37,286 nucleotides of DNA, from the NCBI GenBank assembly GCA_035461305.1, contig DATHVN010000031.1, positions 1 to 37,286 of the forward strand. Reading direction: 5' to 3'. This stretch comes from Euzebyales bacterium (GTDB lineage Bacteria; Actinomycetota; Nitriliruptoria; Euzebyales; JAHELV01). Both the position numbers and the translations under genes were made by a program. How positions within the stretch are numbered: the first letter of the stretch is position 1; each line of letters opens with the position of its first letter. A model generated the notes under the pieces. The model had not been told where the DNA came from and ran no database searches. It worked only from the letters and a program-made list of their open reading frames with translations. Positions 9,125 to 36,933 of the stretch are shown here, piece by piece.

Positions 9125-9307
9125 GGAACTGGCAAAACACCTTGCTACTCCGCTTGCGCCTCGCCTTGCTTCTCGCTGGCTCGCCTGTGGACGATGAGCC
9201 AGCGCTGCGAGTTCGCCTCCGCGGGTCGGATCCCCGGTTTCTCCCTTGCAGGGTCCTTGCGTCTCGCCTCACCCCGATCAGATCGCTGCGTTTCCACCGT
9301 CGATCTC
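9125..9307. promoter_or_regulatory. Degraded copy of the element control region (CCTTGC repeats)
   Basis: This matches 30055-30240 over most of its length. The shared blocks include GGTTTCTCCCTTGCAG and TCAGATCGC(T/A)G(C/T)GTTTCCAC. It has CCTTGCT at 9140 and 9164, CCTTGCA at 9244 and CCTTGCG at 9255. Compared with the intact element, ~290 bases before the ATG of the 197-aa homologue are absent. Confidence 0.6.
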
Positions 9308-9715
9308 ATGCCCACCAGCCCTCGAGACCCCGACCGGCCAGCGCGACACGACCAGCAGCACGAGACGCCCGAACGGGAAGCGTGGTTCCCAGGGCAGCCG
9401 AGTACGGCTCGATCTCAACGCCGAGGCCGCTGCCCAGCTGCGCGATGCGCTCGACCGGCTCGCCCACAGCGAGCCCACCGGTGTCGCCGTACTGGCACGG
9501 CTGGATGTGCGTTTGCCCGACGGCCGCCCGCTGCGCCGGTCGGTCCGCGCTGACCGACGCTGGCGCCTTCCGCGAGGTCGATGGCTCGCACCGAACGTCG
9601 AAACGCGCGGCGTACGTCGACGTTCTTGGCGACTTCGACACCCACGTCGCCGCGCGGCACATCATCGATGCCGCGACACGTTCACACCTCGACCTCACTG
9701 CTCCTCGGCGGATCT
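9308..9715 (+). pseudogene. Homologue of the 197-aa relaxase-upstream protein, frameshifted
   Basis: It begins at ATG 9308 with MPTSPRDPDRPARHDQQHET, close to the intact gene at 30526. One extra C near 9386 shifts the frame (RVRLDLNAEAAAQLRDALDR continues in frame two). A second extra base near 9551 moves the frame again (YVDVLGDFDTHVAARHIIDA in frame three). The C-terminal ~65 residues are lost. The long conserved stretches make this clearly the same protein family as the intact neighbour of the MobF relaxase. Confidence 0.8.
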
Positions 9716-9755
9716 GGCGCTCATCAGGGTGGTGCGCTGGGGCGGGTGGCAGCTG

Positions 9756-11126
9756 ATGGTCGCGTCGGTGGCTGCGATCCGTGCGGGCGATGCTGGTGCG
9801 AGCGTCGCCTACTACGTCGACCAGGTCTCTCGCGATCGTTACGACTACTACGCCGGTCACGGTGAAGCGCCTGGCGTGTGGCGCGACGCGTTCGCCGAGC
9901 ACCTCGGCCTGTCCGGCGACGTGGTCGCCGAGGACTTCCGCAGCGTCCTTGAAGGCCACGATCCGGCGACCGGCGCGCGGCTGAAGCCGCGGGCGAACCG
10001 AAGGGTGGCGGCGTGGGATGTGACGTTCTCGCCGCCGAAGTCGTTCTCGGCGTTGTGGGCGCTCGCGCCTCAGGAGGCCCGCCACGAGGTGCGTGAGGCG
10101 CAGGCCGCCGCGATCGACGCTGCCCTCGGCTACCTCACTCGCCATGCGTGGGTCGCCCGCCTGGGCCGGGACGGTGTCGACCGGCAGGACGGCTCCCAGC
10201 TGGGCTTCCTGCGCGCGGATTTCACGCACCACTGCTCCCGCGAAGGCGACCCGCAACTACAGGACCCACTCCGTCCTCATCGACCTCCTTGAGGCGGCCG
10301 CAGAGCGGCGCTGGACGGCGGGCTGTTCCAGCACGCCAAGGCGCCACACGTCCCCCATCCCGCACGTCACACGGCTACTGGATGCGGTCACGGGACCCGA
10401 CAGCGTGACGAAGCGGGCGTCGAGCTTCTCCCGCCGCGACGCGACCATCGACCTGGCCACCCGCTCGGCGATCCACGGCACCGCCGCCGACAACGCTGCC
10501 TTGCGCATCGAGGTCCTCCTCAACCGGCTGTTGCGGGACGACCGTGTCGTACCCGTCCTCGCGCCCGCCGCACGGACCACCGGCGAACTGCTGCGCGTCC
10601 GCGACGCCACTGGTCGCATCGTGCGGACAGTCGATCAGTCCGAGCGCCGCTACACCACCGTCGACCTGCTGACCGCCGAAACCGAACTGCTCCACCGCGC
10701 CACCAGTCGCCGGCACGCCGGCGTCGCACGCATCCCGCGGTGGATCGTCGACCAGGTGCTCGCCGCCCCACCCGACCCTGGACGCCGACTAGCAGACCAT
10801 GGTCCGCACGCTCGCGTCATCCGGCGCTGGCGGTCGATGTCGTGATCGGCAAGGCCGGCACGGGCAAGTCGACCGCACTCGGCGCGTACCGCGCGGCGCT
10901 CGCCGCCGTCGACATCGGGTCATCGGCGTCGCACCATCCGCCACTGCCGCCCATCAACTCGCCATGTCCGCCGGCATCAGCGACACGCGACGGTCGACCC
11001 CTCCTGGTCGAACTCCGACACGGCCGCCGCACGCTGCCGCTCGGCGTCGTCGTGGTGCTCGACGAGGCCGCGATGTGTCCCCACCCGCACCCGCCTGGCC
11101 CTGCAGCGCGGTCGGCGCTCGCGTAG
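9756..11126 (+). pseudogene. MobF (TrwC/TraI-type) relaxase-helicase, frameshifted and truncated
   Basis: It starts at ATG 9756 with MVASVAAIRAGDAGASVAYY, near-identical to the intact relaxase at 31304. Near 10254 the histidine motif is broken: DPQLHTHSVL of the intact copy becomes DPQL followed by a shifted THSVLIDLLEAA. Some 380 bases, equivalent to residues ~199-327, are then deleted. Further frame changes come near 10780-10840 and 10910. Walker A (GKAGTGKST) and Walker B (VVVVLDEAAMCP) are still readable. The sequence ends at a stop at 11124-11126, before helicase motifs III-VI. It cannot be active. Confidence 0.85.
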
Positions 11127-27361: not shown

Positions 27362-27550
27362 ATGCGCAAGAGACCGATGTCGGTGTCGTCGGCCGGGGTG
27401 ACGCCGCCGGTCTGCCCGCAGCTGTCCGACGAGCTGCGGGTGGCGTCGACCGACATCGCCGCCGTCGCCCGCGAGGGGCTGTTGGTGATGTCGGTGACGG
27501 GCCTGCAGGTGATGGCCGAGCTGATGGACGACGAGCTCGCCGGCCCCGCG
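27362..27550 (+). pseudogene. IS256-family transposase, N-terminal fragment
   Basis: From ATG 27362 the frame reads MRKRPMSVSSAGVTPPVCPQ, then LSDELRVASTDIAAVAREGL and LLVMSVTGLQVMAELMDDEL AGP. The EGLL..S...GLQVMAELMEAD pattern is the start of IS256/mutator transposases. About 60 of ~420 residues remain; the frame then runs into an antisense recombinase remnant. Confidence 0.6.
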
Positions 27551-27574
27551 CACGTCCTCAAGGCCCTCTCGGCG

Positions 27575-28355
27575 CCGCCCTCGGCAACCCAGACGTGCGC
27601 GAACGTGTGCCGGCACTGGTGCGGGTGGACGTGTCCGATGCCGGCCTGGTCTGCGCGTCGTTCGAGCATCTGACCGATGCCCGACGGGTGTCATCGGTCC
27701 GCGGGATGCCGCCCGAGAGACTCGGTGTCGGCGTGGCCGTGGTGGCTTCGGGCGCAGGTAGCGGTCGAGCGCCATCCCGGTGCGCCCACCGAAGGGCGCG
27801 ACCGTCCGCGGCCGCCCTTGCCCCTCACGTAGAGCACTCGAGGTTGAAGTCGACGGTCCAGGGTCAGCCTCGCGAGCTCCGACAACCGCCCGCCGGTGTC
27901 GAGCAGTGTCCGGATGATCGCGGTGTCCCCCCGAGCGACGAAGTACTTGCCCGTACACCCGTCGAGCAGTGCGCCGAGCTGGTCGTCGGTAAGCACCGGT
28001 ACCGGCTGCTCAGGCACCTTCGGTGGCGCATCTTCGTCATCGGGGTGACGCCGAGCTCGCCGTCGTCCTCGAGCCAGCGGAAGAACTGCCGCAGTGACCG
28101 GTACCGTGCGGCGGCCGTCGCGGGCTTCCAGCACTCGAGCAAGGACGCCAGCCATGCTTCGATGTGGCGTCGCTCGATGACGCCGACTCGACCGGCAGGT
28201 CCTGGTCGTCGAGCCAGGCGTCGAACTGCAGTGCCGCCTCGGCGAAGCTCCTGGATCGTCCGAGGTGACCGGTTGCCGACGCGCAGATATCGTTCCACAC
28301 GCGGACAAGCTCGCGGACACGGCCTACACTGCGTGACGACGCACGACGGGACATG
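27575..28355 (-). pseudogene. Tyrosine recombinase (phage-integrase type), heavily frameshifted
   Basis: Family features appear in several minus frames: VERYLRVGNRSPRTIQ and SFAEAALQFDAWLDDQDLPV, HIEAWLASLLECWKPATAAA and RYRSLRQFFRWLEDDGELGV (core-binding domain), PVPVLTDDQLGALLDGCTGK, LLDTGGRLSELARLTLD (catalytic Arg), LYVRGKGGRGR (catalytic Lys) and HPHQCRHTFAHVWVAEGG (His-x-x-Arg). The C-terminal Tyr box is missing where the IS256 fragment begins. It is a nearly full-length but dead recombinase just outside tRNA-Arg(ACG), unrelated in detail to the intact integrase. Confidence 0.75.
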
Positions 28356-28444: not shown

Positions 28445-28518
28445 GCGCCCTTAGCTCAGTGGATTAGAGCATCTGACTACGGATCAGAAGGTCGGGGGTT
28501 CGAATCCCTCAGGGCGCG
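28445..28518 (+). tRNA. tRNA-Arg(ACG)
   Basis: A 74-nt tRNA, GCGCCCTTAGCTCAG to AGGGCGC plus G. The anticodon stem TCTGA/TCAGA encloses CTACGGA, giving ACG. Its 3' end is followed within 20 bases by the convergent end of the integrase gene, the usual arrangement of an element integrated in a tRNA. Confidence 0.97.
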
Positions 28519-28535
28519 CTCCGCATCTGTGCTGG

Positions 28536-29747
28536 TCAGCGGCCTGCAGCGTCCTCGTCATCGCCTCCGTCGCGCGGCGGTGGGCGATCTCTGGACCCAA
28601 TCCTGGACCCACTGGCGTCGCCGACGACGCGATCGACCGCGTCGGAGATGGCCTGCACGGCCTGGTCCATCATCCGTTCGCTGACGTGGGTGTAGATCTC
28701 CCGCGTCGTGCGGCTGTCAGCGTGCCCGAGCAGCTGTTGGGCGACCCGCTCGTGCACACCGCTCTCCGCGAGCGTCGTGCCATAGGTGTGACGCAGATGG
28801 TGGATGCCGCGGTGCTCGACGCCCGCACGTTCGGTGACGCGCCGCCACACGCGTGACAGGTTGCGCTGGTTGATCGGCCGCCCGTTGCGGGTAGTCAGGA
28901 TCAGGTCGTTGTCGTCCCACACCGCCGCCTGCGCGCGTTGCTCCGACTGTCGCTGTAGGTGCTCGCGGAGTATCGCGACGGTGATGGGTGGCAGCGGCAG
29001 CCACCGGCGACCGCTTTCAGTCTTGACGTCTTTGAGCACCGGCGACAGCGGGTCGAGTTGGTGACGCAAGCACAGCAGCCCGGCGTCGAGGTCGACGTCG
29101 GACCAGCGTTGCCCGAGCACCTCCGACAGCCGCATGCCGGTGGCGTGCACCAGGAAGATCGCGACGCCGAGGTCCTCGTCGCGCGCCGCGTCGAGGATCG
29201 CGGCCTGCTCGGCGTGCGTGAACGGCCGCCGCTCCGTCGGCCGGTAGCTCGGGCCGCGCACGAGCTGGGCGACGTTGCGCGGCACCAGTCCCCACATCAC
29301 GGCCTGGCCCAGTGCGATCCGTAGCACAGCGTGGGACAGCTGCACCGTCCTGCGTCCCTTGCCCGCCGCCAGCTCATCGTTGATGAACCGCTGAACGTGC
29401 ATAGGTGTCAGCTTGGCCAGCTTGATGCGCCCGAGACCGGGGACGAGGTGGCGGCGAACAGTGAGCTCATAGCCCTGCTTCGTCTTGCTCGCCAGGTCGC
29501 CCGGTTCGACGATCTCGCGGATCCACGCGTCGAGGAACTGCTGGACGGTGGCGCGGCCGGCATCGGTCGACAGCCCGAGTTCACGCTCGCGCAGCCGCTG
29601 CTGCAGCTTGGCCCGCAACTCGGCCTTGGTCCTTGCCGAGACCTTCGCGCGGCGGCCGCGTTCGTCGCGCGGGAGCCGACCGACCCACAGCTGCACTGAC
29701 GCGTCCCACGTGATCGACCCGTCGCCATCCGTCCGCCGCTTGGCCAT
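28536..29747 (-). CDS. int: Tyrosine-type site-specific integrase
   Basis: A 403-residue phage-type integrase. Residues ~1-60 are an arm-binding domain (ITWDASVQLWVGRLPRDERG), ~65-160 the SAM-like core-binding domain, ~175-365 the catalytic domain with Arg206 (TGMRLSEV), Lys242 (DVKTESGRR), His316/Arg319 (HHLRHTYG), His342 (LLGHAD) and Tyr352 (EIYTHVS). All six catalytic positions are present. It should recombine the element with the tRNA-Arg(ACG) site next to its 3' end. ATG 29747 begins two bases after the excisionase stop; a longer open frame upstream is not protein-like. Confidence 0.95.
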   Translation of the reverse strand: MAKRRTDGDGSITWDASVQLWVGRLPRDERGRRAKVSARTKAELRAKLQQRLRERELGLSTDAGRATVQQFLDAWIREIVEPGDLASKTKQGYELTVRRHLVPGLGRIKLAKLTPMHVQRFINDELAAGKGRRTVQLSHAVLRIALGQAVMWGLVPRNVAQLVRGPSYRPTERRPFTHAEQAAILDAARDEDLGVAIFLVHATGMRLSEVLGQRWSDVDLDAGLLCLRHQLDPLSPVLKDVKTESGRRWLPLPPITVAILREHLQRQSEQRAQAAVWDDNDLILTTRNGRPINQRNLSRVWRRVTERAGVEHRGIHHLRHTYGTTLAESGVHERVAQQLLGHADSRTTREIYTHVSERMMDQAVQAISDAVDRVVGDASGSRIGSRDRPPPRDGGDDEDAAGR

Positions 29748-29749
29748 CG

Positions 29750-29950
29750 TCAGTCGACGTCGTAGCCGGACGCGTCCGCGCGGAGATCGTCGACGAACGC
29801 GGCGAGCGCATCGCGCGGGATCCGGCGGCAGCGTCCGATCCGCACGGATCGGACCGCGCCGATCCGGAGCAGCTCGTACATCTTCGTCCTCCCCACGCCG
29901 ATGATCTCCGCCGCTTCCTCCGCGGTGAACAGCAGCTTGTGCATCAACAT
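29750..29950 (-). CDS. xis: Excisionase-family DNA-binding protein
   Basis: A 66-residue helix-turn-helix protein: LLFTAEEAAEIIGVGRTKMY is the HTH, followed by the wing GAVRSVRIGRCRRIPRDALA. Such proteins bend DNA at attachment arms to favour excision and can also repress. Its gene directly precedes the integrase (2-base gap), so both are made from one transcript. Start ATG 29950 or the ATG two codons later cannot be separated; GGGGGC lies just upstream. It is a distant relative of the remnant at 8793-9006. Confidence 0.87.
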   Translation of the reverse strand: MLMHKLLFTAEEAAEIIGVGRTKMYELLRIGAVRSVRIGRCRRIPRDALAAFVDDLRADASGYDVD

Positions 29951-30525
29951 CGCCCCCAAGTCGGCGTCCGTCGCGGCGAACGAGCCGGTCGCATCGCGCT
30001 CCGCGAAGGCGACTGGTGGCCCGCTCAGCCAGTGATGGGCGACGTGTAGCGGGGCGCCTGGCAAACACCTTGCACGACCGCTTGCGCGTCCGCTGGCTTC
30101 TCGGCGGCCACCTGTGGATATCCGTGCCAGCGATCTGCAAGTTCACCTCCGACGTCGGTTTCTCCGGTTTCTCCCTTGCAGAGACCTTGCGTGTCGGCTG
30201 GCAGCGGTCAGATCGCAGTGTTTCCACTGCCGGCCTCACTGACATTTCGCTGGCATTCGACCGGTACGGGGCCCGACGCGCTTCTCCGTATGGCCGGCCG
30301 TCGGGACGAAATTTCTTGGCCGCCGGTCCGGTGAGCGGTCGTCGGGGAGCGCGTCGAGGGTCTCGGTGGGCACGGATGGCCCGATCTGGACGCCCCGGAG
30401 GGACGTGCCAGCGAATTGCCAGTGGGTCTGCAAGCGAATCTGCAAGGACTTTGCAAGGACCGCGGGCTCATTGACTGCTCGGAGACGTGCGCGCCGGCGC
30501 GCGTCGAGCGAGCGGAGGCCACGCG
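29951..30525. promoter_or_regulatory. Divergent control region with CCTTGCA/TGCAAGG repeats (candidate oriT or regulator sites)
   Basis: About 575 bases between the divergent xis-int and orf197-relaxase arms. On the plus strand CCTTGC(A/G) occurs at 30068, 30174 and 30185, and its complement (C/T)TGCAAG at 30135, 30428, 30440 and 30451. GCCAGCG occurs at 30126 and 30407 and inverted at 30248. The left part is conserved in the decayed element (9125-9307), so it was kept by selection for some time. It must carry two promoters and very likely the transfer origin, because MobF origins usually lie beside the relaxase gene. No nick site could be identified. Confidence 0.6.
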
Positions 30526-31119
30526 ATGCCCACCGACCCCCGAGACGCCGAGAGCCGAGCGCGACACGACCAGCAGCACCAGGCGCCCGGACGGGACGCG
30601 TGGTACCAGGGCAGCCGGGTGCGGCTGGATCTCAACGCCGAGGCCGCCGTGCAGCTGCGCGATGCCCTCGACCCGATCGTCCGCAGTGAACCGGCGGGCG
30701 CCGCGCTGGCTCGGTTGGATGTGCGGCTGCCCGACGGTCGTCCGTTGCGGTTGTCGGTCCGGCTGACCGACGCCGGCACGATCCGCGACCCGGACGGCAC
30801 CTGCCGATCCTCCGAGGGTGTCGCCTACGTCGACGTCTCGGGCGACTTCGACACCCACGTCGCTGCCAGGCAGGTCATCGATGCAGCGACGAGTCCGTAC
30901 CACGACGTTCCACGGTCCGAACAGGCCGCCGCCGAGCTCGACGCCGCACGTGTTGACCGGGCGCGCGGCGGCCGAGCGCCTACGGCCGCCGCGCTCGACA
31001 ATCAGACGCGAAATGTCGTGCGCGCTCGCGCGCAACAAGCGGCCGACCACACCCGCACCCAGCGGATCGCCGACGTCGTCCGTCGCAGCCGAGATCTGGG
31101 GATCGGCTGGGACCAATGA
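30526..31119 (+). CDS. Conserved protein of unknown function upstream of the relaxase
   Basis: A 197-residue soluble protein, start ATG 30526 with GGAGG eight bases upstream. Residues ~20-120 form an alternating fold: RVRLDLNAEAAVQLRDALDP, ALARLDVRLPDGRPLRLSVR and GVAYVDVSGDFDTHVAARQV. Residues ~130-197 are basic and helical (ARVDRARGGRAPTAAALDNQ, ADVVRRSRDLGIGWDQ). No family is recognised. The frameshifted homologue at 9308-9715 sits at the same place before the other relaxase, so the pair is an evolutionarily stable module. A role as a transfer-origin accessory or regulatory protein is inference. Confidence 0.7.
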   Translation: MPTDPRDAESRARHDQQHQAPGRDAWYQGSRVRLDLNAEAAVQLRDALDPIVRSEPAGAALARLDVRLPDGRPLRLSVRLTDAGTIRDPDGTCRSSEGVAYVDVSGDFDTHVAARQVIDAATSPYHDVPRSEQAAAELDAARVDRARGGRAPTAAALDNQTRNVVRARAQQAADHTRTQRIADVVRRSRDLGIGWDQ

Positions 31120-31303
31120 CGGACCGCCGCGCGCCCGCAGCAGTCGCCGGCGTGGCCTCGCGGGCCCCGATCCCATCGCTGCCGGACGGGCCGCTGGCAT
31201 CGGCATTGCAGCGCAATGCAAGCGTGTGCTTCGGTCGTCGCCTCGCTGCTCCTCGGTGGACTGGGTGCTCCTCGTTGTGGCGGTGTGGGGCGGGTGGCTG
31301 CTG

Positions 31304-33976
31304 ATGGTCGCGTCGGTGGCCGCGATCCGTGCGGGCGATTCTGGTGCGAGCGTCGCCTACTACGTCGATCAGGTCAGTCACGATCGGCACGACTACTACG
31401 CCGGCCATGGTGAGGCGCCGGGCGTGTGGCACGGCACCTTCGCGGAACATCTCGGCCTCTCGGGCCACGTGGCCGCGGAGGACTTCCGCGCCGTCCTCGA
31501 GGGTCACGACCCCAGCAGCGGCGAGCCGCTCAAGCCGCGGGCGAACCGGCGGGTCGCCGCGTGGGACGTCACGTTGTCCCCGCCGAAGTCGATCTCCGCA
31601 CTGTGGGCCCTCGCACCCGTCGACACCCGACGCGAGGTGACGGAGGCGCAGGCCGCGGCGGTCGACGCCGCCATCGGCTACCTCACCTCCCACGCGTGCG
31701 TCGCTCGGCTCGGCCGCGACGGCGTCGACCGGCAGGACGGCGCCCAGCTGGGGTTCCTGCGCGCGGAGTTCACGCACCGCTGCTCCCGCGAAGGCGACCC
31801 CCAACTTCACACACATAGCGTTCTGGTCAACGTCCTCGAGGCGGCCGACGGCCGCCGCGCAGCACTGGACGGTGGGTTGCTATTTCAGCACGCCAAGGCC
31901 GCCGACGGCATCTATCAGGCTGCCCTCCGGGCCGACCTGACCCGCCGCCTCGGTGTCGACTGGGAGCGTCGTGACGAGCAGTGGCAAATCGCCGGCATCC
32001 CACCCGGCCTGTGTCGTGAGTGGTCCAAGCGGCGCAGCCAGATCACTGCGGCGCTCGCCGCCCGCGGCCTCGACCCCGACACCGCCTCCGGGCGCGCTGC
32101 CCAGACCGCGGCGCTCGCGACCCGCCACCGCAAGGTGCACGTCGGCGACGGTGAATCGCTGCACCATCGGTTCGCACGTGAAGCCGTCGCCGCTGGACTT
32201 GCGCCACACGCGGTCCTCGAGGCGGCGCTGCCATCACACCCGCAACACCACCGGCAACCTCGCGCGCAACCGATCGAGCGCAGCCCACGGCTGCTGGACG
32301 CGATGACCGGGCCAGACGGCGTGACCAAGCAGGCGTCGAGCTTCTCCCGCCGCGACGCGATTATCCACCTCTCCGCCCGCGCCGCGGTCCACGGCGCCAG
32401 TGCCGACAACGCCGCCGCTCGCATCGAGATCTTGGTCAATCGGCTGCTGCGCGACGACCGCGTCGTCCCCGTCCTCGCACCCGCCGCCCGCACCACCAAC
32501 GACGTACTGCGCGTCCGCGACGCCACCGGGCGGATCATCCGCACGGTCGATCAATCCGAACGCCGCTACACCACCATCGACCTGCTCGCCGCCGAGACCG
32601 AACTCCTACAGCGCGCCACCGGCCGGCAGCACGCCGGCGTCGGACGCATCCCCGGCGGGATCGTCGACCGGGTGCTCGCCGCCCACCCTGGGTTGGACCT
32701 CGACCAGCAGGCCATGGTCCGCACGCTCGCCTCGTCCGGTGCGGGCGTGGATGTCGTCGTGGGCAAGGCCGGGACCGGCAAGTCGACGGCGCTCGGCGTC
32801 TACCGCGCCGCACTGGATGCCGCAGGCGTCCCCGTCGGCGGCGTCGCACCGTCTGCGACCGCCGCGCACCAACTCGCCATGTCCGCTGGCATCACCGACA
32901 CGGCAACCGTCGACCGGTTGCTGGTCGAGCTCCGACACGGCCGCCGTGCCCTGCCGCGCGGCGTGGTCGTGGTGCTCGACGAGGCCGCGATGTGTCCCAC
33001 CCGCACCCGCCTCGCACTCCAACGCGCCGTCGACGCTGTCAACGGCAAGATCGTCGACGTCGGCGACCACCGCCAAATCCCGTCGGTCGACGTCGGCGGC
33101 GGCCACTACGCCCTCGCCCAACGCCTCGGCGCCACCGTCCTCGGACAGAATCACCGGTTCCGCGACCCCGTGTACCGCGACGCCGCCGAGTTCCTCCGCG
33201 ACCGCCAGCCCGCCGCCGCGGTCGAGGTCCTCCGCGCGCAGGGCGCGGTGTCCGATCACCACACACGACCGGTCGACGCGTGGACGGAAATGGTCGACGA
33301 CTGGCTCACCCACCGCGACAACGGCCACAGCGTGCTGATGCTCGCCACCGAACGCGCCACCGTCGCCGAGCTCAACCGGCTCGCCCGAGTCCACCTCGTC
33401 GCCCGCGGTGAGGTCGCACGACGCGCACGCACCTACCGGGCGGTCGGTGACCGCCGGACGATTGCGCTCGGGGTCGGCGACGAGGTCATCCTGCGGCGCA
33501 ACCACCAGCTCACCCAACCCGACGGCACCACGACCGCCGTGCGCAACGGCATGACCGGCCGCGTCACCGCCACCCGCCGCCGACACGTCACGGTCCAACT
33601 CGACGCCGCCCACCAGACTCTAGGAGGACCCACGAGTGTCGTGCTGCCGGATGGTTACGTCGGCGCGCACGTCGACTACGGCTACGCCCGCACCGTCGAC
33701 ACCGCCCAAGGCGCCACCGTCGATCACAGCCTGTTCGCGCCCTCAACGTCGGCCACGGCCGAGCGGGCGTACGTCGCGCTGTCCCGCGGGCGGCTGTCCA
33801 ACCGCATCTACGCCACCCACGACCGCGCGTGGATTGACGCCCTCGGCCGACGCCGCAGGCACGCGCTCGCCGTTGACCAGCAGCCCGCCGTCGACCGCTC
33901 GCCGACGCACGTCACGCGACCTCCCACGCTCGCTCGCGATCACGACCGTCAACCGCCACTCGAGGTCGGCCTGTAG
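31304..33976 (+). CDS. MobF-family conjugative relaxase-helicase (TrwC/TraI-type)
   Basis: An 890-residue protein that would nick and unwind element DNA for transfer. The relaxase domain (~1-290) has N-terminal tyrosine pairs YY (19-20) and YY (31-32), the VTLSPPKSISALWAL motif (89-103) and the metal-binding histidines His158, His169 and His171 (DPQLHTHSVLVN). The helicase is an AAA_30/RecD-like superfamily 1 type: Walker A GKAGTGKST (487-495), Walker B VVVLDEAA (555-562), GDHRQIPSVD (587-596), GQNHRFRD, ARTVDTAQGATVDH (795-808) and AYVALSRGR (822-830). ATG 31304 begins the sequence shared with the decayed copy; the ~160-codon upstream extension overlaps the 197-aa gene out of frame. It is slightly short for the family but complete. 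Confidence 0.95.
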   Translation: MVASVAAIRAGDSGASVAYYVDQVSHDRHDYYAGHGEAPGVWHGTFAEHLGLSGHVAAEDFRAVLEGHDPSSGEPLKPRANRRVAAWDVTLSPPKSISALWALAPVDTRREVTEAQAAAVDAAIGYLTSHACVARLGRDGVDRQDGAQLGFLRAEFTHRCSREGDPQLHTHSVLVNVLEAADGRRAALDGGLLFQHAKAADGIYQAALRADLTRRLGVDWERRDEQWQIAGIPPGLCREWSKRRSQITAALAARGLDPDTASGRAAQTAALATRHRKVHVGDGESLHHRFAREAVAAGLAPHAVLEAALPSHPQHHRQPRAQPIERSPRLLDAMTGPDGVTKQASSFSRRDAIIHLSARAAVHGASADNAAARIEILVNRLLRDDRVVPVLAPAARTTNDVLRVRDATGRIIRTVDQSERRYTTIDLLAAETELLQRATGRQHAGVGRIPGGIVDRVLAAHPGLDLDQQAMVRTLASSGAGVDVVVGKAGTGKSTALGVYRAALDAAGVPVGGVAPSATAAHQLAMSAGITDTATVDRLLVELRHGRRALPRGVVVVLDEAAMCPTRTRLALQRAVDAVNGKIVDVGDHRQIPSVDVGGGHYALAQRLGATVLGQNHRFRDPVYRDAAEFLRDRQPAAAVEVLRAQGAVSDHHTRPVDAWTEMVDDWLTHRDNGHSVLMLATERATVAELNRLARVHLVARGEVARRARTYRAVGDRRTIALGVGDEVILRRNHQLTQPDGTTTAVRNGMTGRVTATRRRHVTVQLDAAHQTLGGPTSVVLPDGYVGAHVDYGYARTVDTAQGATVDHSLFAPSTSATAERAYVALSRGRLSNRIYATHDRAWIDALGRRRRHALAVDQQPAVDRSPTHVTRPPTLARDHDRQPPLEVGL

Positions 33977-34100
33977 ATCGCCGACGTGCCCGCGGAACGG
34001 TTGAGTTGAGATGATCTCCGCAAGAGCTGATGTATCCGGACCGGCTGCCCGATGCGGCGTCAGCCGTCGCCGACGGGCCGTACTCGGTTGTCGTGCCGTT

Positions 34101-34610
34101 TCAGGGCGCGCCTGTGAATCGCCAGCGTCCCGATGCTTCGAAGCCATCACGGCCTGCCCACCCTGTCGAACGCCATGCCAGCACAGTCAACGGCGCGATT
34201 GCGGTCAGCGGCCCGTACACGTCCACGTCGTACCGCCAGTCGTACTTCTCGTCGTACCGCCCCACCACCGCCGCGTCCGCCCCTCGACCGGTCACCCTCC
34301 CCTCGACGATGACGACGTCGGTGTCGCTGCCAAGATGCACGGTGACGAGCGGGTCGACGTCGAGCGAGCTTGCGACGATGGGGCTCCCGACGCTGAGATG
34401 CAGCACGTTGGCGTGCCACACGCCCCATACCGGCCGTGGATGCGGGTGGCCCGGCCCCCGGGCGATCACCCAGTAGGTTCCGGCGGCCTCAAGCTGGGCT
34501 TGCACCCACGACCATGCCAGCATGCGCGCACTGCTCGGCTGGCCGTACATCACGAGCTGTTCGCTGGTCGGTTCCACGACCTGGACGGTAGCGGATGACC
34601 GCGACCGCAC
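34101..34610 (-). CDS. PPOX-fold (pyridoxamine 5'-phosphate oxidase-like) protein
   Basis: A 169-residue split-barrel flavin-binding family protein. The order SARMLAWSWVQAQLEAAGTY, WVIARGPGHPHPRPVWGVWH, LHLSVGSPIVASSLDVDPLV and TVHLGSDTDVVIVEGRVTGR matches the PPOX fold (strand, strand with R.V.. W, helix NL...P.V.V, strand ..V.. EG.A). It may bind FMN or F420 and reduce small molecules; the substrate is unknown. It is the first plain chromosomal-type gene beyond the relaxase, and its stop codon lies in the possible attachment match. Confidence 0.72.
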   Translation of the reverse strand: MRSRSSATVQVVEPTSEQLVMYGQPSSARMLAWSWVQAQLEAAGTYWVIARGPGHPHPRPVWGVWHANVLHLSVGSPIVASSLDVDPLVTVHLGSDTDVVIVEGRVTGRGADAAVVGRYDEKYDWRYDVDVYGPLTAIAPLTVLAWRSTGWAGRDGFEASGRWRFTGAP

Positions 34611-36207: not shown

Positions 36208-36933
36208 TTACTCTTCCTTGTTGTAGATGACGGGCATCTGGCCCTGCCATTCCTGCCAGATGTCGTTGTCAGTAATCAGATCTGCCATGAAGTGGCCGAC
36301 ATTGATTCGGCTGGTCTTCCCTGCATCAAAGATCGCACTCCTCGTGGGCGACGGATGTATTTCATACTCAGAGACGGCGCTCTCATCGATCAAGCTATCT
36401 GGTCGAACTGCTGCCCACTCGATCAGTTCATTGCCTTGGCCGATCTTGCTGCGCAGATGATCTGCAGCTTGCTCATTGTCTGCGTGCGGTGGCAAGACCA
36501 GACGTAGGAGTCCAACAATCAATTTCTGGAATAGGGAGATTGGTTCATTGAGGTCGCGATTGCGGTTGCCGGTGGTATTCATAAGCACAAACTTGGTTGA
36601 CCCTTTCGGTCCGTTCGCCTTAATGGCAGTACACAATCGGCGCGTTGCGTCGGTGACGAGTCGGCGCGGTTGGCCATACATTCCCTTGAAGTTCGTATTG
36701 TGGCCGAGACATGACGCCACCGCATCGCAGCCTTTCACGTGCTTGGCCAGCTCGGCATCACTCAGATCTAGGAGGCTGGCCTGAACTACAGACAAGTTGT
36801 CGTGAGTCCTGAGTGCTTCGGGCAAGCTATCCGGTGAGCGCACGATCACTTTGACGACGTGTCCGCGTTGCAGCAATTGTTCGACGAGCAACTGGCCAGT
36901 CGCGCCGCTTGCACCGACGACGAGTATGTTCAT
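36208..36933 (-). CDS. NAD(P)-binding atypical SDR (NmrA-like), AT-rich gene
   Basis: A 241-residue Rossmann protein beginning MNILVVGASGATGQLLVEQL, with GASGATG nucleotide binding, RSPDSLPE after beta-2 and VVQASLLDLSDAELAKHVKG. It lacks the Tyr-x-x-x-Lys of classical SDRs. Members sense NADP(H) or reduce small substrates. GGGAGAAG precedes the ATG 36933, and a short upstream frame overlaps it as ATGA. The gene is clearly AT-richer, with codons such as TTG, ATT, CAA and GAT common, unlike all its neighbours, which points to recent transfer from a lower-GC donor. Confidence 0.88.
   Translation of the reverse strand: MNILVVGASGATGQLLVEQLLQRGHVVKVIVRSPDSLPEALRTHDNLSVVQASLLDLSDAELAKHVKGCDAVASCLGHNTNFKGMYGQPRRLVTDATRRLCTAIKANGPKGSTKFVLMNTTGNRNRDLNEPISLFQKLIVGLLRLVLPPHADNEQAADHLRSKIGQGNELIEWAAVRPDSLIDESAVSEYEIHPSPTRSAIFDAGKTSRINVGHFMADLITDNDIWQEWQGQMPVIYNKEE

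Follow-up and report, generated by a model that had tools for sequence, protein, structure and literature searches.

The window analysed here, a stretch of 37,286 nucleotides that makes up the whole of contig C31 in a genome of 4.24 Mb and 237 contigs from an uncultured actinobacterium, quite probably carries an integrative and mobilizable element (IME) of ∼5.6 kb and of the MobF type. An IME of this rare kind is the best reading of what was observed, namely the gene content, the co-occurrence of orf197 and mobF, a hairpin followed by a nick-like motif, the exchange of integrases between copies, and the lack of transfer genes of its own; excision, nicking, mobilization, and a part for orf197 are what we infer from these.

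The arrangement given in a preliminary description of this DNA, in which int and xis diverge from a 197-aa protein and a MobF relaxase, was confirmed with ARAGORN, Pfam, PHROGs, and NCBIfam. The integration target, a tRNA-Arg(ACG) gene (28445–28519, plus strand; ARAGORN), is followed on the minus strand by a tyrosine integrase of 403 aa (28536–29747; PF00589, E 4e-27; phrog_1, E 1e-73) and an excisionase-like HTH_17 protein (29753–30064; PF12728, TIGR01764), the true start of which is probably the ATG at 29950 (homologues in L044, L045, and L090 start near residue 37–41). Divergent from these, on the plus strand, are orf197 (30526–31119), encoding a putative relaxosome accessory protein, and mobF (31304–33976), encoding a relaxase-helicase of 890 aa (PF08751, PF13604, NF041492). 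All four are intact open frames in the window copy. Canonical IMEs have their own integrase, relaxase, and oriT and no transfer channel (PMC5704250), and the same is seen here: an integrase and an excision factor (by the PF00589, phrog_1, and TIGR01764 matches), a MobF relaxase, an oriT that is a candidate from its conservation and F-like layout, and no mating-pair formation genes inside the element or in the flanks, the genome as a whole being without PF02534 and PF12696.

Completeness of the relaxase-helicase, also claimed earlier, is borne out by its domains and motifs. The TrwC domain spans residues 15–295 (E 8e-74) and AAA_30 residues 464–653, and the NCBIfam MobF model is matched above its curated cut-off. 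The N-terminal ∼280 residues align with the TrwC and TraI structures, the YY..YY tyrosines, the Asp, and the three His of a TrwC relaxase are present, and the Walker A and B motifs identify AAA_30 as the fused SF1 helicase. Between copies, Ka/Ks was 0.18–0.22 for mobF and 0.26–0.41 for orf197; because these values are below 1, both genes appear to be retained as proteins under purifying selection. A search of viral contigs with mobF returned nothing close.

Neither T4CP nor T4SS genes lie within the element or in either flank (to the right are minus-strand frames without assignment and a TetR regulator), so the earlier statement that coupling and secretion genes are lacking stands, and it extends to the genus, which shows no coupling protein of the VirD4 type: PF02534 and PF12696 were found in 0 of 4 genus genomes, with AAA_10 matches only below cut-off. 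The T4CP and VirB4 of T4SS-type ICEs are absent from the element, the flanks, and the genus genomes, and the FtsK/SpoIIIE-type TraB and Rep gene of AICEs are absent from the four genes of the element. With a relaxase and a probable oriT present and a transfer channel absent, the element most likely hitchhikes on other elements. Across the class, PF12696 is present in 14 of 66 genomes, and in other genera a MobF gene and a coupling protein occur on one contig (e.g., G030:C2, G035:C23, G050:C7), the T4CP genes lying 7–22 kb from the MobF genes. MAG bins often miss plasmids, and for that reason the absence of a coupling protein from the genus is weak evidence.

Beyond what the preliminary description reported, we identified a candidate oriT, iterons, and exchange of the integrase module. 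The candidate oriT core (31203–31229, plus strand), put forward from conservation and from comparison with F and TrwC, consists of the hairpin GCATTGC-AGC-GCAATGC (31203–31219) and the 8-nt spacer AAGCGTGT, and the nick is predicted between 31227 and 31228; an inverted repeat with a nick 8–9 nt 3′ of it, as in MobF systems, is thus predicted here. When the DNA upstream of mobF was aligned across copies, a shared block starting at ATGCAAGGGTGTGG emerged, and the 66 class genomes contain exact matches to this 14-mer at six places, each of them the site just upstream of mobF. The window copy reads ATGCAAGCGTGTGC, two substitutions away, and its nick motif is GCGTGTGC as against GGGTGTGG in six relatives; after the hairpin it has AAGCGTGT/GCTT where the relatives have AAGGGTGT/GGTC (the slash marks the predicted cut), which gives a predicted site of GCGTGT/GC versus GGGTGT/GG in most copies. 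Because of these two substitutions in the nick motif, the window copy may be immobile.

All seven copies that keep the region have the hairpin 8 nt ahead of the nick motif, with a sequence that varies among them: GCATTCC-AAA-GGAATGC in L023, GCATTCC-AGC-GGAATGC in L044, GCATC-GTT-GATGC in L043, and, in L042, six pairs with the outermost pair lost. Two stem pairs have changed on both arms, i.e., in compensatory fashion. In the seven related sequences (the left arm being shifted in two), 82% of stem cells were paired, versus 18–45% with the arms slid, and a perfect stem of at least 5 ends at only 1.9% of element positions. The layout of hairpin and then GGGTGT/GG matches the F/R1 core, GCAAAAACTTGTTTTTGC-GTGGGGTGT/GGTGC (PMC5422253), and for TrwC the nick is reported to lie 8 nt from the proximal arm (PMC4814116).

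The MobF relaxases in the rest of the class differ in their neighbours and are found in larger T4CP-bearing regions or in a second compact family. In ten MobF loci of other class genera (L056–L064 and L067; e.g., L059:6192, L058:5832), a conserved hairpin lies by the relaxase start, in the motif GCACTGRCCCAGTGC-CAGTCTGT/GT, which is placed just upstream of the relaxase gene on the opposite strand and is replaced by GCACTGGTCCAGTGC in one locus. The layout is again a hairpin, eight nucleotides, and TGT/G, an integrase adjoins the relaxase gene in 5 of the 10 loci, and the motif is a candidate oriT of another IME group. The rule that had described the first site (a hairpin, then 8 nt and TGT/G, beside mobF) also led to this one, which supports it, and we suggest the rule as a route to oriT sites in other actinobacterial MobF elements. 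When other loci of the class were searched for GGTGTGG close to a hairpin, no consistent site emerged, and this approach was dropped.

All eight subfamily copies with a surviving mobF 5′ end (the window, the decayed copy, C161, C206, C171, and C116 of G001, C136 of G002, and C40 of G003) have orf197 immediately ahead of mobF, and the preliminary description's expectation that the two genes would co-occur elsewhere was therefore upheld. The gene orf197 is present in 4 of 4 genus genomes and in none of ∼97 other relatives searched. In a profile search of 66 class genomes, it was absent from the 62 outside the genus apart from one weak match in G061, which was rejected because it runs antisense to an acetyltransferase gene. 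Among 85,000 species genomes scanned, the only one with orf197 was the MAG of Actinomycetota bacterium 0813_bin27 (contig JAHWKT010000199.1), identical with G001, and nothing close was found in plasmids, phages, or viral contigs (IMG/VR). Its product belongs to no family in Pfam, PHROGs, or NCBIfam; its profile did not match proteins encoded ahead of the relaxase gene in the other MobF families of the class, and AlphaFold2 gave a poor model (pLDDT 55) with meaningless Foldseek matches, so no fold was assigned. A ribosome-hibernation (HPF/S30AE-like) fold, considered because of the predicted beta-alpha-beta-beta-beta-alpha order, was discarded when a profile comparison with class proteins of PF02482 gave no match. 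Two internally deleted forms lack the middle part (L044:1159–1725 and L045:216–650), and both keep the C-terminal helical part, which is perhaps essential.

An array of three TGCAAG iterons spaced 12 and 11 bp lies at 30429–30457 (plus strand), and no three-copy chain arose in 20,000 Markov sequences of the region; inverted members of the repeat (CTTGC pairs at 30069 and 30175; 30069–30190, minus strand) are conserved in L042 and the decayed copy. Iterons of 11–12-bp spacing precede orf197 in the window, L042, L044, and L045 and lie between orf197 and mobF in L043 and L046, which indicates that they belong with orf197-mobF and not with the integrase. Reading them as arm sites of Xis or Int was rejected as the main interpretation, as they remain beside orf197-mobF in copies with another integrase module. 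The orf197 product is probably a relaxosome accessory protein, and it may bind the TGCAAG iterons that accompany its gene. We think it rather unlikely that orf197 is instead an anti-defence, regulatory, or entry-exclusion gene riding with mobF: the protein has neither an assigned fold nor a family and can lose its middle part, but the gene stays strictly adjacent to mobF through integrase swaps, on the same strand, and is placed between the iterons and the oriT. The more specific proposal of the preliminary description, that the 197-aa protein takes the place of a standard relaxase partner, goes further than co-occurrence and Ka/Ks values below 1 can establish.

Each of the four genus genomes available has copies or remnants, and the integrase module has been swapped between copies, which are associated with tRNA-Arg, tRNA-Ala, and tRNA-Val. 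The recombination module of the window is also found on L044 and at tRNA-Ala(GGC) in G002 (L045), the integrases of which are 55–56% identical to that of the window; L042 has a different integrase with its own HTH_17 protein, and L043 and L046 have a XerC-like integrase after tRNA-Val(TAC). In these last two, an extra basic protein without family is encoded before orf197 (L043:6511–7181, L046:11189–11773). Decay or a contig end has left many copies incomplete, and several related contigs stop inside mobF. The recurrent small element family that had been proposed was thus recovered, although the label "actinobacterial" is too broad for an orf197 found so far in one genus. A decayed second copy in the window (∼9139–11118, plus strand) keeps a repeat region and fragments of orf197 and mobF in the order described earlier, but it holds no remnant of int, xis, or the oriT core and hairpin, and its supposed location at tRNA-Ser was incorrect, as the nearest such gene (1884–1974) is 7 kb away.

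On the tRNA side, the boundary of the element is clear. A 43-bp att identity block (28477–28519, the attL side) runs from the anticodon loop to the 3′ end of the tRNA, and in G002:C35 (L091) the block, CTACGG...GCGCGC, recurs 3.1 kb away and is followed by the same element end. The tRNA-Arg locus of G002 holds two remnants of a window-type integrase, with the 43-bp block repeated before the second and one remnant 96% identical to the window integrase over 122 aa, and in G001 (L090, C22) a remnant with an excisionase lies at the same tRNA-Arg; these remnants in two other genomes mark tRNA-Arg(ACG) as a hot spot. The previously proposed right end at 34111 is less secure, since it repeats, out of the expected 43-bp block, no more than 11 bp from the 3′ end of the tRNA (34101–34111, plus strand); the chance of this in 8.7 kb is 0.02, or 0.09 with small offsets, which makes it a weak attR candidate. 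In relatives the mobF stop codon is followed by unrelated DNA, so the true right end is probably within ∼150 bp of the stop. No empty tRNA-Arg site was found in the other genus genomes: they contain nothing that corresponds to the right flank, and the sites reached from the left flank are either occupied or truncated. Three further genus contigs (L092, L093, and L094) end inside the tRNA att block.

From homology and the att repeats of a relative, the integrase and the HTH_17 excisionase would recombine the element into and out of tRNA-Arg(ACG). After excision, the relaxase would bind to the hairpin that precedes mobF, nick 8 nt beyond it (at GGGTGT/GG in most copies), and stay on the 5′ end while its helicase unwinds the strand, which would be handed to a coupling protein and channel from another element; the orf197 protein would most likely act in the relaxosome and may do so by binding the iterons.

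The window copy itself may be damaged, its nick motif being altered and its attR not clear. A stronger version of this idea is that it is a fossil, either of a once-mobile element or of a larger ICE, fixed in the chromosome through the lost attR and the changed nick site. We regard this as possible but somewhat doubtful. The truncated right repeat and the two substitutions in the nick motif are in its favour, as are the decayed copies elsewhere in the same genome and the class contigs that carry both MobF and T4CP genes. However, all four genes are intact, mobF and orf197 diverge under purifying selection, and the same minimal gene set, again without transfer genes, is seen in copies from other species and at different tRNAs, which suggests that small size is a trait of the family rather than the result of random loss. 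It is much less probable that the main task of the relaxase is to replicate the excised circle by the rolling-circle mode or to recombine it site-specifically, with cell-to-cell transfer rare or absent. Although the genus genomes are without any coupling protein (helpers may simply be unseen in MAG bins), the element has no separate replication gene, and the iterons resemble those of replication or segregation, a relaxase fused with a processive helicase is how conjugative MobF proteins are built, the oriT core agrees with cores that function in conjugation, and recurrence across species and different tRNAs argues for horizontal spread. A mobilizable element thus remains our preferred reading.

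A review of IMEs in 2017 by Guedon et al. listed none with MobF or MobH and one only in Actinobacteria (PMC5704250). A close likeness is to the MobF IMEs of Mesorhizobium (traACD), described in 2021, which have an integrase and a MobF-family relaxase, no T4SS, mostly tRNA gene sites, and a smallest member of 5,814 bp (PMC8627217). Contrasted by description, those elements carry TraA with accessory TraC and TraD and belong to Proteobacteria, whereas the window family has orf197, another gene order, and a place in Actinomycetota. With plasmid F/R1 the element shares a hairpin, then GGGTGT/GG, and a MobF relaxase-helicase (PMC5422253), but its relaxase is shorter (890 aa), F-type transfer genes are lacking, and the spacer is 8 nt rather than 9. 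The relaxase domain is homologous to that of R388 TrwC (1omh) over 282 residues and both systems have 8 nt from the proximal arm to the nick, whereas the TrwA-type accessory protein is replaced by the unrelated orf197 protein and the nick sequence differs. T4SS-type ICEs of Actinobacteria share a TrwC-domain relaxase and an integrase but carry T4CP and VirB4, absent here (PMC3218068). We tentatively suggest, as a proposal nearly as credible as its opposite, that a deep actinobacterial class contains a minimal MobF IME lineage with an F-like oriT core, a new accessory protein, orf197, acting on TGCAAG iterons, and hosts without a visible coupling protein. The family adds to the MobF IMEs, a kind unknown to the 2017 review, an actinobacterial group with a testable conserved oriT core; it provides a precisely defined DNA substrate for cleavage assays and a new candidate relaxosome protein, and it presents small elements persisting in genomes without a visible helper.

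Several minor observations concern the surroundings and other remnants. Left of tRNA-Arg (window 27544–28327) is a decayed XerC-like recombinase with an intact counterpart at the same place in G001:C22 (L090:10164–11120), the relatives of which are integrases of tRNA-Val elements. A reductase-like gene near the contig end (window 36208–36933; 56% G+C versus 69% in the surroundings) is possibly a recent import. Further relaxase fragments, one or two of them more divergent, occur in G000:C74:35484–36523, G003:C68:3674–4852, and G001:C165:22057–22788, and show that the genus has lost such elements repeatedly.
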